DNA of 11,895 bases from assembly GCA_031280855.1 (NCBI GenBank), contig JAITGH010000060.1, positions 1 through 11,895 of the forward strand. The letters are read 5' to 3'. The first letter of the stretch is position 1; each line of letters starts with the position of its first letter. The stretch is from Oscillospiraceae bacterium (lineage in GTDB: Bacteria; Bacillota; Clostridia; Oscillospirales; Oscillospiraceae). The translations under genes were made by a program, and so were the position numbers. The notes under the pieces were generated by a model that worked only from the letters and a program-made list of their open reading frames with translations, was not told the DNA's origin and ran no database searches. Positions 1 to 7,330 of the stretch are shown piece after piece.

Positions 1-255
1 ACGCGGCGTGAGCCCCTGATTCGGCTGATTCCCACCGTCGCCCTGCCCGACGCTGTCTATCACGACTTTCGTTATCTTCGCATCGTTTAGCCCGTACTTC
101 ATGAGCGTTTTCGCGGCAATGCCGCTCTCCTCGCGGATCAGCCCGAGCAAAATGTGCTCCGATCCAACGTAGCTATGCTTGAGATCGTTCGCGGCATCCT
201 GCGCGAGGTTAACAACGCGCTTTGCGCGTTCCGTGAATTTATCCTCGTAGTTCAT
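1..255 (-). CDS. clpC: ClpC ATPase, N-terminal 85 residues (cut by window edge)
   Basis: This is the start of an AAA+ unfoldase of the ClpC type, which feeds substrates to ClpP in the cytoplasm. Only the N-terminal repeat domain is present: the motif FTERAKRVVNLAQ near residues 7-19 and GSEHILLGLIREESGIAAK at 31-49 are typical of ClpC. Glu33 in GSEHILLGL corresponds to the glutamate that contacts phosphoarginine in the Bacillus ClpC N-domain (family knowledge, recalled), which fits the kinase gene just upstream. The ATG at 253-255 is preceded by an AGGAG ribosome binding site (on the minus strand, around 261-265) and follows the kinase stop by 16 bases, so the two genes are very likely co-transcribed. 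The AAA domains lie outside the window, so ClpC is preferred over ClpA/ClpB from the N-domain and neighbourhood only. Confidence 0.93.
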   Translation of the reverse strand, partial: MNYEDKFTERAKRVVNLAQDAANDLKHSYVGSEHILLGLIREESGIAAKTLMKYGLNDAKITKVVIDSVGQGDGGNQPNQGLTPR

Positions 256-271
256 ATATTCTCCTTTGCCA

Positions 272-1522
272 TTAGTTTGCGATATCACCTTTAATAGTGC
301 GGCGCAAGACCTGAGCGCGAACGGAGTTCATCTCCACGTCGCTTAGGTCGCGTCCCGAGTCAAAACAGAGCGTGTTCGGCTGAATCTTGTGGATTAGGTT
401 GTCGATCGTAGAGATCGGGACGCTAAGTTCGCCGATAGAAACCCCGACCCTAACCGCGCTCAGTAACTGCATCGCTTCCTCGCCGGAGATGCTCCGCGCA
501 TTCGTAAGCAGCCCGAACGCTCTCCAGACGTGGTCGTCGATGTAACCGGGGTGATTGTTATCCAGCGCACGCTGAATCTCACGCTCCCGCGTTATAATCC
601 GCAAAACGAGCGCGTTGAGGTTCTCCACAATCTGACGCACGGAAAGCCCCATCGTTTGCTGGTTAGAGATCTGGTACAATCTGCCTACCGGCTTCGTCCC
701 CTCGCCATAGAACCCGCGAATGGTATAGCCGCTTTTCGCAAGCCTCGCGGTTAAGCCGTGAATCGAGCCGCTGTCCGTATGCGCGGGCAGGTGCAGCATG
801 ACGCTGGCGCGAAGCCCGGTTCCCAGATTCGTCGGGCATCGGGTAAGCCAGCCGTGCTCCTCGTCATTGGCGAAGTCGAAGTGACCGGACAGCATCGTCT
901 CAAGCCTGTCGACGGTCTCGAGGCAACTCTTCAGCGCCAGTCCCTCACCAAGCGCCTGGATTCGGAGGTGATCCTCCTCATTGATCATGACGCTGACCTT
1001 CTCATCGGGCGAAATCGCGGCACCGCACTTCTCGGACTTGTGGAACAGCTCCTTAGAGATGAGGTGGCGTTCAAGCAGCGACGCGGCCTCAAACGGATTC
1101 TCAACTTTAAGCTCGACGGTGTCAATGACACGGAACGCCTCGCCCTCCGCGATACCGCCGAGGAAGTCGCCGATCTGCTCGAACACGCTCGACTGCTGCT
1201 GCTCCGTCATCGCGCCGGGGAACGGAGTCTCCGCGAGGTTCCTCGCCAATCGGATTCGACTGGAGACCGCGATATCGCCGAATGACGGGTAATCGCGCAG
1301 CAAGTCAGAGAACTCCGACGGCGGCTCCGGCAGCCGCAGTTGATGCATCCGCTCGATATGAGGGTTCAGGATGTGCTCAAACGTGATATAGCAGTGCGCA
1401 CAGCCCGCCTTCACGCTTTCGATTATGTCATCCTCGTTGGAGCCGCAGACGGGGCACGTCGGCGACGATGCGGACATTAACTCGTCAATACTCAGGTGAC
1501 GTCCTGATGATGCGTTTGCCAT
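272..1522 (-). CDS. mcsB: McsA zinc finger fused to McsB protein-arginine kinase
   Basis: A 416-residue protein-arginine kinase that should phosphorylate arginines on aggregated or misfolded proteins so that ClpC can recognise them. Residues about 80-410 match McsB: SSRIRLARN (87-95), NEEDH (181-185), CPTNLGTGLRAS (229-240) with catalytic Cys229, and GEG (273-275). The first 75 residues are not normal McsB: they hold C-x2-C-x14-C-x2-C (Cys23, 26, 41, 44) followed by a short helix, with the same cysteine spacing and local sequence as the second zinc finger of McsA. Thus the activator's finger is fused to the kinase; McsA's first finger and UVR segment are absent. The RDxxRA phosphoarginine-receptor motif near the C-terminus aligns with MNSVRA (398-403), so its first two residues are changed. 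The ATG has a GGGGGTGAT site upstream and its own promoter. Kinase identity is secure; the fusion is read directly, its consequence is inferred. Confidence 0.95.
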   Translation of the reverse strand: MANASSGRHLSIDELMSASSPTCPVCGSNEDDIIESVKAGCAHCYITFEHILNPHIERMHQLRLPEPPSEFSDLLRDYPSFGDIAVSSRIRLARNLAETPFPGAMTEQQQSSVFEQIGDFLGGIAEGEAFRVIDTVELKVENPFEAASLLERHLISKELFHKSEKCGAAISPDEKVSVMINEEDHLRIQALGEGLALKSCLETVDRLETMLSGHFDFANDEEHGWLTRCPTNLGTGLRASVMLHLPAHTDSGSIHGLTARLAKSGYTIRGFYGEGTKPVGRLYQISNQQTMGLSVRQIVENLNALVLRIITREREIQRALDNNHPGYIDDHVWRAFGLLTNARSISGEEAMQLLSAVRVGVSIGELSVPISTIDNLIHKIQPNTLCFDSGRDLSDVEMNSVRAQVLRRTIKGDIAN

Positions 1523-1542
1523 ATTATATCACCCCCACTGTA

Positions 1543-1571
1543 ATTATAACACGAAAGTACCGCTTTGTCAA
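1543..1571 (-). promoter_or_regulatory. sigma-A promoter of the mcsAB-clpC unit
   Basis: Reading the minus strand, TTGACA (1566-1571) and TATAAT (1543-1548) are separated by exactly 17 bases, and TGT directly before TATAAT gives an extended -10. Transcription would begin near 1536, leaving a leader of only about 14 bases before the mcsAB ATG at 1522. No CtsR-type direct heptads (GGTCAAA repeats) and no CIRCE inverted repeat are visible in or around it, so control of this stress operon is not the usual Bacillus one, or is not encoded at this site. Confidence 0.9.
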
Positions 1572-3777: not shown

Positions 3778-4020
3778 TCAGATATCGTCTAACGCGGCGG
3801 TGATATACTCCGCAAGCGTCCAAACGTCACGGAACGTGTGCACGTCCTCATCGTGGATTTGTATAGTGAACGCCTTCTCGCAGTCGATGACCAGCTTTGC
3901 GAGATCAATCGGCTCGACACCCGCCTCCGGCGTAAGCGCGGAGCGCTCGTGCAGGTGCGAAGCGTCCTCGCTTATCGTTTCGGCTAGCAGCTCAATGATT
4001 CTCTCAACCGTCGTATCCAT
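3778..4020 (-). CDS. Acyl-carrier-protein-like protein lacking the phosphopantetheine serine
   Basis: An 80-residue acidic protein with the helix pattern of an acyl carrier protein: an N-terminal helix (VERIIELLAETI), a loop, then IDLAKLVIDCEKAFTIQI and a final helix WTLAEYITAAL. It aligns along its length with AcpP. At the place where AcpP has the DSL motif carrying 4'-phosphopantetheine, this protein has EPI in AGVEPIDLAKLV (about residues 39-50), so no serine is available there and conventional acyl carriage looks impossible. The codons are GAG-CCG; a TCG serine codon is one base away from CCG. The start at 4018-4020 is chosen because GGAGGT sits 5 bases upstream; an ATG at 4038 would place that site inside the gene. 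It overlaps the helD 3' end by 17 bases and comEC starts 2 bases after its stop. Function unknown: a scaffold or degenerate carrier are possibilities. Confidence 0.85.
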   Translation of the reverse strand: MDTTVERIIELLAETISEDASHLHERSALTPEAGVEPIDLAKLVIDCEKAFTIQIHDEDVHTFRDVWTLAEYITAALDDI

Positions 4021-6079
4021 CGTTGACCTCCGTTGCAAACAGGTTCAGCCGGTGTAAGGCTCGCGTACACGCGACATACAGCAAGTGCTTAGAGAAGCGC
4101 GAGTACTCGCAAACCAGCACCGCGTCAAACTCCAGCCCTTTCGCCATGTACGCCGGAAGTATGAACGCGCCTCGAGCGTCGTACCCGGTCATCAGTCGAA
4201 CGTCTGTAAGCGACTTCAATCGCGCAAGGTGCGACTTCGCGCCGCTCATGCTGTCGCATATCAGCGCGATTGAGCCATAGCCAAGCTCGAGGCATCGGTC
4301 AAGCTCCGCCGCGATCGCGCCGATGTACGCGTCCTCGTCCGCGAAATGCGTTGAAGTCGGAACCTCACCGCTGCGGCCGAAGTTCTCAATCGGCTTCCCG
4401 AGTATCGCGGCACTGAAGTCGAGGATCTCCTTCGTCGAGCGGAAGCTTCGGCTAAGCGTGACGAGCTGCGACGTCCGCGGCTTAAGCGTCGCGCTGATCC
4501 TATCGTACAGCGTCAAGTCGGTCTCACCGACGACAGTCTGGCTGACGTCGCCAAGCACGGTATAGTGTGCGCTCGGGAAGATGCGCTTCAGGATCGCGAA
4601 ATGTACGGAATCGTAGTCCTGCGCCTCGTCGACGACGAGTTGCCGGATATCGCCGAACGGGCGCGACGGCTCCAGCGACAGCTTCAACAGAGTTACGCCG
4701 ACCGCATCGCAGTATTTAAGCGTTGCCGGAACGGTCTCGCCAAGCATCTCAAAATAGAGCGCGGCGTAGTCGAGCCTCGTGAACGTTCGCACGTGCAGGA
4801 TCAGCTCCGTGCTCTCGGCGATTGAGATCATGCGTGCGTACTCGGCGAACTCGTACCTATGTTCCTCAATCTTCTCGGCTTCGCGCTCGAGCTCACGGAT
4901 GTGCGGCTGACGAAGCCGATGCACTGCGTTAAGTATGATTTGCTCGATCTTCATGAGCCTGACCGCAAGCGGAGCGCTCGCGTCCATCGCGTTGAACGCG
5001 GTCTCCAACTCCTCGACCGTGAAGAGCGTACGACCGAGATATTCGACGTCGCGGAACTGCGGCGCGATCGAGTCCGCGAAGTCACGCACTCGGGCGGCGA
5101 ACGCCTCGGAGGCTTTGTACGCGGACTCCGCGCCATCGGCTTGACCCGTGATGATTGCCTCCAATTCGTCGAACTTCGATTGGTAGTCCAATGCGAAGCC
5201 ATGCACGGCATCGACGAGCGACGCGAACGTCAGCGAGGTTACGCTTTGCTCGCCCAGCTCCGGCAAAACTCCGCCGATGTACTTCTCGAACAAGCGGTTC
5301 GGAGCCAATACGGCGATATTATGGGCAGACAGTTTTCCGGTCAAGCCCTCGTACATCAGGTACGCGGCGCGATGCAGCGCGATCGAAGTCTTACCGCTTC
5401 CCGCCGCGCCCTGAACCATCAGCAGTTCATTGCGCATGTCGCGTATGACTTCGTCTTGATCACGCTGAATCGTCTCCACAATCGACTTCATCGACTCGGA
5501 CGCGTTCCGCGAGAGCAGCTTGCGCAAGTACTCGTCAACGATTTGCACGTCGGAGTCGAAGTAGTACTCGAACTTTGCGTTCTTGATCTCGAACTGACGC
5601 TTCAGCGTAACAGTCCCCTCGACCGCACCGATGGGCGCGTTATAGCTCGCGGGCCCGACTCCGTAGCGATAGAACAGGCTCGACACCGGAGCCCGCCAGT
5701 CAAAGACGCGGATATCGCGAGCACTCTCGCCGCGTATGGAGAATCTGCCGATATAGTGCGTGCGAGTGCGGCCGTCCCTTAAGAAGTCAACTCTGGCAAA
5801 GTAGGGACTGTTATATGCGGCGCGAAGCTGAGCCTCACGGTTCAGCGACGACTCGACGGCAAGATTCTCCCGCGCCAGTGAAGTTAGGTACAGCGCGATG
5901 CTCATCGTTCGCTCTTCTTTGTCGATCGCAGTTCTAATGTCATCATACGCATCGTTTGCGGACGCGCCGAGTTCCCGCTCTCGCGAGCCGCTCTCGCGAG
6001 CCGCGTCGATGAGTTGCTCATCGATGATACGCAGTATTCCGTCGAAATATGCAAGTTCCAGTTGCAGTTCGTCTTCCAC
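4004..6079 (-). CDS. helD: HelD-type superfamily 1 helicase-like ATPase (RNA polymerase recycling)
   Basis: A protein of 691 residues of the UvrD/Rep superfamily, HelD branch. HelD binds RNA polymerase and uses ATP to release it from stalled complexes. The N-terminal 60 residues are a charged, helical, probably coiled-coil arm, as in HelD. Numbered from the chosen start, helicase motifs are: Walker A GAAGSGKT (224-231), DEAQ (484-487), GDVSQ (510-514), RSFRS (544-548), AKGLEFDAVLV (646-656) and YVACTRALHRL (668-678). Bacillus HelD has about 774 residues, so this is a somewhat short form. I chose the GTG at 6077-6079 because AGAGGTGA lies 6 bases upstream; the GTG at 6088 would sit inside that site. 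It has its own promoter and is the first gene of a tight unit with the ACP-like gene and comEC. A generic UvrD-like helicase is the alternative, but the N-terminal arm and DWRAPVSSLFY (127-137) favour HelD. Confidence 0.9.
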   Translation of the reverse strand: MEDELQLELAYFDGILRIIDEQLIDAARESGSRERELGASANDAYDDIRTAIDKEERTMSIALYLTSLARENLAVESSLNREAQLRAAYNSPYFARVDFLRDGRTRTHYIGRFSIRGESARDIRVFDWRAPVSSLFYRYGVGPASYNAPIGAVEGTVTLKRQFEIKNAKFEYYFDSDVQIVDEYLRKLLSRNASESMKSIVETIQRDQDEVIRDMRNELLMVQGAAGSGKTSIALHRAAYLMYEGLTGKLSAHNIAVLAPNRLFEKYIGGVLPELGEQSVTSLTFASLVDAVHGFALDYQSKFDELEAIITGQADGAESAYKASEAFAARVRDFADSIAPQFRDVEYLGRTLFTVEELETAFNAMDASAPLAVRLMKIEQIILNAVHRLRQPHIRELEREAEKIEEHRYEFAEYARMISIAESTELILHVRTFTRLDYAALYFEMLGETVPATLKYCDAVGVTLLKLSLEPSRPFGDIRQLVVDEAQDYDSVHFAILKRIFPSAHYTVLGDVSQTVVGETDLTLYDRISATLKPRTSQLVTLSRSFRSTKEILDFSAAILGKPIENFGRSGEVPTSTHFADEDAYIGAIAAELDRCLELGYGSIALICDSMSGAKSHLARLKSLTDVRLMTGYDARGAFILPAYMAKGLEFDAVLVCEYSRFSKHLLYVACTRALHRLNLFATEVNDGYDG
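4026..4031 (-). promoter_or_regulatory. Ribosome binding site deciding the ACP-like start
   Basis: GGAGGT on the minus strand, 5 bases before the ATG at 4018-4020 and inside the last codons of helD. Its position rules out the upstream in-frame ATG at 4038 as the main start. Confidence 0.85.
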
Positions 6080-6102
6080 TCGATTCACCTCTTTCGTATG
6101 CT

Positions 6103-6378: not shown

Positions 6379-6837
6379 ATGTTATTCGGTGAGAAGCTCG
6401 CCCAACTGAGGAAAGCGAAATCCCTTACCCAGACCAAAGCCGCGCAGGCACTTGGCGTGCCGTTCCGCACGTACCAAAACTACGAAAGCTGCAAAATCTA
6501 CCCGCGCAATCGCTCATTCTACAAAACTACCGCAGAGTTCTTTGAGGTTCCGGAATCCTACCTCGTCACCGATGACGACACCTATATCGCGGACGCATAC
6601 GAGCGCGGCGGCTCGACCAGCAAGCGTCAAATTCAAACGCTTCTCGCGGAAGTCGGCGGTCTGTTCGCCGGAGGTGACCTCAGTGAGGCGGACAAGGATA
6701 AGGTCATGCTCACCATGAGTACTCTCTACTGGAAAGCAAAAGAGAACAACAGGAAGTACACGTCCTCCGCACGCCGTGCTCAGGCTGACTCTGCGAACTC
6801 GATCTTGGACGACGACGAGGACGATACGCTTGATTAG
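6379..6837 (+). CDS. XRE-family (ImmR/DdrO-like) transcriptional repressor
   Basis: A 152-residue DNA-binding regulator. Residues 5-65 form an HTH_3 domain; the helix-turn-helix is about LTQTKAAQALGVPFRTYQNY (16-35). A helical segment (about 80-123) probably mediates dimer formation, and the tail is strongly acidic (LDDDEDDTLD). GGAGGT 6 bases before the ATG supports the start. The stop overlaps the start of an ImmA-type protease, the arrangement in which the protease cleaves the repressor under stress (ImmR/ImmA of ICEBs1, DdrO/IrrE of Deinococcus; family knowledge). The likely operators are the inverted repeats in its own promoter region, shared with divergent helD. Target genes beyond this are unknown, and the cleavage site cannot be read from sequence alone. 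No mobile-element gene lies beside it. Confidence 0.9.
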   Translation: MLFGEKLAQLRKAKSLTQTKAAQALGVPFRTYQNYESCKIYPRNRSFYKTTAEFFEVPESYLVTDDDTYIADAYERGGSTSKRQIQTLLAEVGGLFAGGDLSEADKDKVMLTMSTLYWKAKENNRKYTSSARRAQADSANSILDDDEDDTLD

Positions 6838-7330
6838 ACGTATCTCCGCGAACGTCTCTCAACTTGCCAAACGCTACACAGACCGCGACCCGTTCCAAAT
6901 CGCACACTCAACCGGTGCGCAAGTCGAGTTCTTCGATCTCGGCAACCTCAAAGGCTTGTACACCGTCATAATGCGCAACCGCTTCATCGTCATCAACTCT
7001 AGGCTCGATGAGTTCCGGCAAAAGCTTATATGCGCCCACGAACTTGGGCACGACCGCTTGCACCGCAAGCTAGCCGTAGGCGTCACATTTCGGGAGTACT
7101 CATTCTACGACATGACGCTGCGCCCCGAATACGAGGCTAACATCTTCGCGGCCGATCTCCTCGTTTCGGACGAAACGTTCCTCGAGTTGATCGCGAAAGG
7201 ATACGAGTACGAGCAGATCGCTCAAGTCACGCATACCGAGTTGAACTTGATCGCAATCAAGGCGACCTCACTGCAAGCACGAGGTTACGACTTGCGCGCC
7301 CCGGGCTTCCGCTCAGACTTTCTGAAGTAA
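6830..7330 (+). CDS. ImmA/IrrE-type zinc metallopeptidase
   Basis: A protein of 166 residues of the ImmA/IrrE (COG2856) family, which cut a partner XRE repressor. The zinc motif HELGH is at residues 70-74 within KLICAHELGHDRLHR, and the third-ligand region EYEANIFAADLLV follows at about 100-112; all key residues look intact. Start choice: the frame is open upstream to an ATG at 6776, but that start lies deep in the repressor gene, and the peptide it adds resembles no family member. The TTG at 6830-6832 overlaps the repressor stop (TTGATTAG) and has GAGG 9 bases upstream, within the codons of the repressor's acidic tail. Expression is therefore probably coupled and low relative to the repressor. 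A substrate other than its neighbour is possible but less likely. Confidence 0.9.
   Translation: MIRRISANVSQLAKRYTDRDPFQIAHSTGAQVEFFDLGNLKGLYTVIMRNRFIVINSRLDEFRQKLICAHELGHDRLHRKLAVGVTFREYSFYDMTLRPEYEANIFAADLLVSDETFLELIAKGYEYEQIAQVTHTELNLIAIKATSLQARGYDLRAPGFRSDFLK

Follow-up and report, generated by a model that had tools for sequence, protein, structure and literature searches.

The closest described counterpart of the locus analysed here is the two-protein McsA–McsB system of Staphylococcus aureus and Bacillus subtilis. According to the available extracts of the cited reports, McsA has two roles, as a helper of CtsR (PMC12634643) and as the activator of McsB through its second zinc finger, finger 2 (PMC7235348), which is the part that contacts McsB in the complexes 8GQD and 8WTB/8WTC (PMC12467219, PMC12387690, PMC7235348). 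The same extracts place the phosphoarginine (pArg) receptor of B. subtilis McsB at R337/D338/R341 (PMC8370763, PMC7235348), report that R337 is required for the kinase signal of that protein and that R169 of B. subtilis McsA, in the C-terminus and outside finger 2, is also required for stimulation (both PMC7235348), and identify E32 and E106 as pArg pocket residues of ClpC (PMC12583610).

A single open frame for finger 2 and McsB

The window, an 11,895-nucleotide stretch of an Oscillospiraceae genome (contig JAITGH010000060.1), contains at 272–1522 one open frame of 416 amino acids in which the second zinc finger of McsA precedes a complete McsB, as a sequence-only reading had proposed. The frame lies on the minus strand, a point absent from that reading, with its ATG at 1522 and its stop at 272–274; read on the plus strand, the interval is interrupted by stops. 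The pair itself is known, and its architecture here is new; the parts and surroundings are as follows.

1..255, minus strand: 5′ part of clpC, adjoining the fusion gene downstream and cut at the window edge (Pfam Clp_N, E 9.3e-16)
272..1522, minus strand: fused mcsA(finger 2)–mcsB gene, 416 amino acids, stop counted in the coordinates (frame, profile matches, alignment)
275..562, minus strand: residues 321–416, McsB C-terminal dimerisation and pArg-binding domain (PDB alignments, model superposition)
314..331, minus strand: residues 398–403, MNSVRA, opposite B. subtilis R337-D338-x-x-R341-A, the pArg receptor (alignment)
563..1282, minus strand: residues 81–320, McsB phosphotransferase domain (Pfam PF00217, PDB McsB matches)
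836..838, minus strand: codon of catalytic Cys229, equivalent to B. subtilis Cys167 (alignments)
1283..1339, minus strand: residues 62–80, linker of 19 residues (pLDDT, dN/dS)
1340..1462, minus strand: residues 21–61, McsA second zinc finger and the helix after it, CYITFEHILNPHIERMH (profiles, pLDDT)
1463..1522, minus strand: residues 1–20, short N-terminal lead with a predicted helix at 12–16 (SIDELMS; sequence, and a model helix of low to middling confidence)
1530..1536, minus strand: GGGGGTG, resembling a ribosome-binding site, 7 bases before the ATG (sequence)
1543..1571, minus strand: perfect sigma-A-type promoter TTGACA-N17-TATAAT upstream of the fusion gene (sequence)

The four cysteines of the finger (Cys23, 26, 41 and 44) follow the C-x2-C-x14-C-x2-C spacing exactly, as had been read. 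Residues 17–60 align with positions 74–117 of the NCBIfam McsA model NF053706 (E 3.4e-5; 23.7 bits, far under the whole-protein cut-off of 210 bits), and a finger-2 HMM derived from 54 McsA proteins that adjoin McsB in other lineages gives the fusion 41.7 bits. McsB models cover residues 78–411 (best E 8.9e-104; 347 bits, short of the model cut-off of 385) and PF00217 covers residues 135–315 (E 5.9e-55), the phosphotransferase and C-terminal domains both being present at full length. Corresponding HMMs for finger 1 and the UVR segment, built from the same 54 proteins, find no match within the fusion frames of the six genomes of the genus (G000–G005), leaving finger 2 as the only McsA module of the six fusions. 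Because UVR is unmatched and NF053706 reaches just 23.7 of 210 bits, the fusion is not a full McsA. The AlphaFold2 (AF2) monomer model has a mean pLDDT of 90.3 and a pTM of 0.86, with block means of 86–93 for residues 21–60 and of 66 and 76 for the linker (residues 61–80).

The fusion shares with the S. aureus and B. subtilis pair the finger-2 cysteine pattern and following helix, the kinase and C-terminal domains, the catalytic cysteine and the clpC neighbourhood, but it is one chain instead of two, is without finger 1, UVR and ctsR, has R337 and D338 of the pArg receptor replaced in the window, and is preceded by a sigma-A promoter free of CtsR boxes. GTCAAA is absent from the 180 bases upstream of all six fusion genes, and no CtsR heptads accompany the promoter in the window; genome-wide counts of CtsR boxes with one mismatch proved too noisy to use, since control matches were about as numerous. 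Upstream of the fusion, the nearest gene of that strand resembles comEC. A CIRCE-like inverted repeat, TTAGCACT-N10-AGTGCTAA, overlaps the −35 element of the fusion promoter in two genomes of the genus (L115, upstream of 10613 in G002; L117, upstream of 5733 in G004); it is imperfect in G004, and no HrcA is found in either genome. G001 and G003 have a gene between the fusion and clpC (L114:5082-6095 and L116:1753-2754), the former encoding a sugar-transfer-associated ATP-grasp protein (PF14397, E 1e-49) and the latter a protein alike by eye.

Ancestry of the fusion and its genomic context

The sequence-only reading had pointed to related genomes for the same domain order, and the fusion is found in six of six searched genomes of its genus, one of uncultured Clostridia, as open frames of 415–422 amino acids. 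A set of 60 genomes, the window's own (which gives a single fusion match) and relatives, yields 23 matches: six are fusions, and in the other 17 mcsA and mcsB are two genes. In a family sample 13 of 200 genomes match, one weakly over 35 residues; the other 12 comprise four fusions, all in the same genus, and eight genomes with a separate finger-2 match. A class sample gives 173 matches in 245 genomes, and among the matches listed the window's own is the sole single open frame over both parts. Likewise, a pattern scan of 113 loci finds both parts in frame only in L001, L002, L005–L009 and L034, all from the fusion genus or its contig. Two further candidates were discarded: the class-survey match in G150 (query residues 21–369, internal stop) proves to be a separate finger-2 frame with mcsB after it, and an apparent McsB–ClpC fusion in G119 (1,160-residue open frame) reads as two frames with one stop between them. 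A finger-only search of a 5.8-billion-sequence set returns two proteins (P0001 and P0002), fewer than the known fusions, and is therefore too insensitive to exclude fusions elsewhere. Confinement to one genus is not proven, the class survey covering part of its matches and two further searches the best 120 and the best 80.

Eleven distinct fusion sequences are available, on separate contigs and from several sources, the other ten being 59–85% identical to the window's. Ten carry all four cysteines, the eleventh (P0007) being truncated at its N terminus, and residues Y45, F48, P54, I56 and E57 of the post-finger helix are as invariant as the cysteines. The dN/dS of the finger is 0.04 and 0.05 in two close pairs, a third being saturated (pN/pS 0.08); among the three close pairs compared, the kinase gives 0.03–0.04 and the linker 0.06–0.08. 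The finger is under purifying selection, and the fusion is therefore neither a chance join nor an assembly error. The fragmentary state of the window's genome (64% complete, 212 contigs) would be a reason to suspect an assembly or annotation artefact, which in the face of eleven divergent sequences on separate contigs is scarcely credible.

A 44-row McsB tree places ten fusion rows in one clade (100/99), nested among McsBs of the same family; the fusion has a single origin. Its sister is P0009, a possibly truncated protein of 345 residues, and next to both, at 93/83, stand G375, G007 and P0010. Unlike the fusion genus, G007, G011 and G375 of the same family encode a separate full-length McsA (finger 1, finger 2 and UVR) as well as mcsB, with ctsR first in the operon; finger 2 of G007 shares 51% identity with that of the window and has a joint top alignment score. 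Two joint alignments that included McsA rows (A1 and A2) were misaligned or doubtful and were left out of account.

A search of the six genus genomes with the McsA model gives no free mcsA; besides the fusion, other frames yield weak sub-threshold finger-1-like or UVR matches, including one to UVR (E 0.08) with an internal stop in a 184-residue frame of G001. With finger 1 and UVR lost, finger 2 kept and no free full-length mcsA found in these genomes (the window's being just 64% complete), the proposed reduction of a two-gene pair to one protein is supported. Two regulators, whose absence the sequence-only reading did not mention, are missing as well: CtsR is above cut-off in none of the six genomes, as against 9 of 16 others in the same search (a sub-threshold candidate in a 40-residue frame of G000 was dropped), and HrcA in none of the six, as against five of five others searched. 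The chance of one gene hiding in the missing part of all six assemblies, taken as the product of missing fractions, is about 2e-5. With neither CtsR nor CtsR boxes upstream of any of the six fusion genes, a CtsR-controlled clpC operon is not matched, and since both repressors are gone, heat-shock repression must work otherwise in this genus.

Partners of the pathway are retained. ClpC is kept in the genus with GSEH and GTEH sites equivalent to E32 and E106; the window's partial clpC includes the first, and the second lies outside the window. These sites do not tell whether the pathway is live, for McsB-free relatives keep them too: by motif, all 16 ClpCs read have the first and 15 of them the second, with none shown for G012. 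A YwlE-like low-molecular-weight phosphatase with the motif C[TSA]GNTCRSP, whose Thr we take to be a mark of arginine phosphatases, is encoded in all six genus genomes (cut in G002) and also in G007 and G011. In NCBIfam the G000 phosphatase has only sub-threshold tyrosine-phosphatase and arsenate-reductase matches, the best, to a tyrosine-phosphatase model, with 44 of 243 bits, and none names an arginine phosphatase.

The kinase part shows both constancy and change. The Cys229 column is invariant across a 56-row alignment. The pArg receptor, whose alteration is likewise absent from the sequence-only reading, is M398/N399/R402 in the window, so that R337 and D338 are replaced. The R-D pair is lost in eight of the eleven fusion rows and retained in G001, G003 and P0008, and on the tree the fusion therefore preceded its loss. 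As R337 is required in B. subtilis and the equivalent residue is Met398 here, the activity of the fusion could be weak. R190 and R194 correspond to G252 and G256 (Arg at 256 in six of eleven fusion rows); pArg194 clamps the B. subtilis McsB octamer, and on these replacements a caged octamer of that kind would be unlikely for the fusion protein.

Separable modules of McsA

Some McsA module is detected by the three HMMs in 37 of the 60 genomes, the other 23, which are McsB-free, being left out of the counts. Finger 2 is present in 23 of 23 genomes with McsB and in one of 14 without it (Fisher p 4e-9, a value that ignores kinship, 12 of the 13 finger-2-less genomes coming from one family). The exception, G039, has no McsB found and a shorter finger-2 match whose following helix looks degraded; it breaks a strict pairing of the two. 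All 14 McsB-free genomes with McsA modules keep finger 1, UVR and CtsR. Finger 1 never occurs without CtsR in the 37 genomes (27 with both, three with CtsR only, seven with neither), the converse failing in G037, G041 and G042, which have CtsR and no finger-1 match, so that this pairing is not strict either; UVR occurs without CtsR once in the 37 (G058). Among McsB-free relatives with CtsR and ClpC, an McsA-like protein with finger 1 and UVR and without finger 2, which the sequence-only reading had not noted, is encoded at loci L121–L126 and L132–L137 (G006, G008, G019, G014, G012, G036, G022, G025, G027, G028, G032 and G059) and L127 (G024).

The opposite reduction is seen in another family, in genus g65 (G063, G099, G150 and G216; loci L169–L172; genomes of about 0.9 Mb), where McsA is likewise cut down to finger 2 and adjoins mcsB and clpC, but as a free protein of 56–64 residues. 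In the McsBs of these four g65 genomes Ser replaces the catalytic Cys and the pArg pocket is altered, and finger 2 is therefore not always kept for ordinary catalysis. As judged from sequence, the partition of finger 2 with McsB and of finger 1 and UVR with CtsR fits the two reported roles of McsA; this natural split may be new, and it lets the two roles be tested apart. A finger-1-like motif also occurs in long frames of about 770–850 residues (G000:C70:2667-2777 and like frames in relatives), which we take to be probably the N terminus of ClpE.

Finger 2 and the phosphagen-kinase N-terminal domain

A second family for comparison, again absent from the sequence-only reading, is that of the phosphagen kinases, which join a small N-terminal domain and a catalytic domain in one chain, an arrangement that the fusion matches in part. 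With its finger included, the predicted model of the fusion superposes on arginine and creatine kinases, from residue 5–20 and mostly to about 315–321, whereas seven McsB entries superpose only from residue 77–78. Residues 28–110 alone match the single arginine kinases 5u8e (E 0.0044) and 1rl9 (E 0.0067), and also the two-domain taurocyamine kinase 4wo8 with a whole-chain E of 3.4e-5 that sums two repeats, each weak (domain E 1.1 and 2.5). In this match fusion residues 38–109 (72 residues) pair with 1rl9 residues 68–144 (77 residues) with two short gaps. The likeness extends beyond fusions: for a profile of 59 standalone McsA finger-2 halves, the top two non-McsA matches in the PDB are creatine kinase 1vrp, at E 0.013, and then 4wo8, at E 0.13; both align in the same register. 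An hhalign comparison of finger 2 with phosphagen kinases scores 34.0 over 39 columns, a value reached by none of 200 column shuffles (maximum 8.5), with finger 1 and UVR as controls at 6.7 and 7.3. With whole finger 2 as the profile, zinc ribbons outrank creatine kinase; in a single-sequence search the alignments of seven phosphagen rows begin no earlier than residue 85, and the Pfam N-domain family gives no match to the fusion at E up to 1.

In both sequence and model the matched part is the last segment of the N-domain, with the motif Y-x2-F-x3-(F/L)-x-P-x-I-x3-H in the matching place, while the front half of the fusion's lobe is a zinc ribbon where phosphagen kinases have front helices. 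The fusion further differs from these enzymes in being of the McsB type, with protein instead of a free guanidino compound as the presumed substrate, and in its additional C-terminal pArg domain. Finger 2 of ordinary McsA resembles the end of the phosphagen-kinase N-terminal domain. This may be new: no mention of it or of a McsA–McsB fusion was found in the literature searched, which lay outside the main McsB structure papers, and the available portions of two reviews do not mention the likeness. It would offer a structural reason for the need of McsB for McsA, since McsB, unlike its animal relatives, has no small lobe.

With about even chances, the likeness reflects descent, finger 2 being a detached phosphagen-kinase N-lobe and McsA–McsB a split kinase whose lobe is supplied in trans. 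The genus would then have rejoined the lobes and dropped the CtsR-linked half of McsA, both repressors and, mostly, the pArg pocket, to leave an unregulated disposal enzyme; the finger 1 and UVR half beside CtsR and ClpC elsewhere would mark two separable functions. Convergence on one docking surface, somewhat unlikely by comparison, would sit well with the shortness of the matched stretch (20–39 columns) and with a zinc-binding half that has no counterpart in phosphagen kinases, but it has to account for a score far above 200 shuffles, an identical order of parts and a similar spacing to the catalytic domain.

For the fusion itself, the reading that probably holds is that of a single-chain, self-activating protein-arginine kinase. 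Finger 2, held beside its own McsB domain, would pack on the catalytic domain like the N-domain of creatine and arginine kinases and would order the loop preceding catalytic Cys229, a task that in S. aureus falls to McsA finger 2 in trans; the tether would make a free activator needless and activation constitutive. The kinase would add phosphoarginine marks that direct proteins to the ClpC of the adjoining gene, and the YwlE-like phosphatase would reset them. With CtsR and HrcA gone, transcriptional control would be lost and the fusion would serve protein disposal and not de-repression of heat-shock genes. The mechanism put forward by the sequence-only reading is in large part supported, and neither of the results that it named as refuting turned up. 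Its contact between finger and kinase agrees with a confidently predicted fold in which, to the extent that superposition ranges of a monomer model indicate, the finger lies against the kinase, a placement that may partly echo phosphagen kinases learnt by AF2. Its suggestion that the fusion defines the minimal activating part of McsA stands in that finger 2 is the McsB-binding part; this is not new, as structures and papers already describe that contact, and the fusion is without the McsA C-terminal part that bears R169.

Docking between chains, with each finger on the kinase of its neighbour in a dimer or tetramer, would fix stoichiometry with no activation in cis. The tetrameric assembly of S. 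aureus McsA–McsB, as described in the available part of the report (PMC12467219), and the lower confidence of the linker (pLDDT block means above) lend this some weight; the monomer model nevertheless already superposes on single-chain phosphagen kinases, and the finger–kinase spacing is near that of 1rl9, so that the between-chain arrangement appears unlikely. It is more improbable still that the finger senses redox state or zinc, or offers a ClpC adaptor surface, instead of being an activator: extracts of two reports (PMC7235348, PMC5506225) describe how thiol stress oxidises McsA finger 2 in B. subtilis, but this oxidation works by breaking the McsA–McsB contact and therefore presupposes binding, and the helix residues Y45, F48, P54, I56 and E57 match the cysteines in invariance among the fusions. 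If the self-activating reading is right, a one-chain McsA–McsB would simplify the study of arginine phosphorylation, which normally takes two proteins.

Elsewhere in the window, a gene for a UvrD-like helicase (4004–6088, minus strand), whose product we take to resemble HelD, overlaps at its end with that of a lone phosphopantetheine carrier protein (3778–4038, minus strand), and an HTH regulator overlaps an ImmA/IrrE-type peptidase (PF06114) at 6379–7330 on the plus strand, with weak capH/capP-like PADLOC matches.
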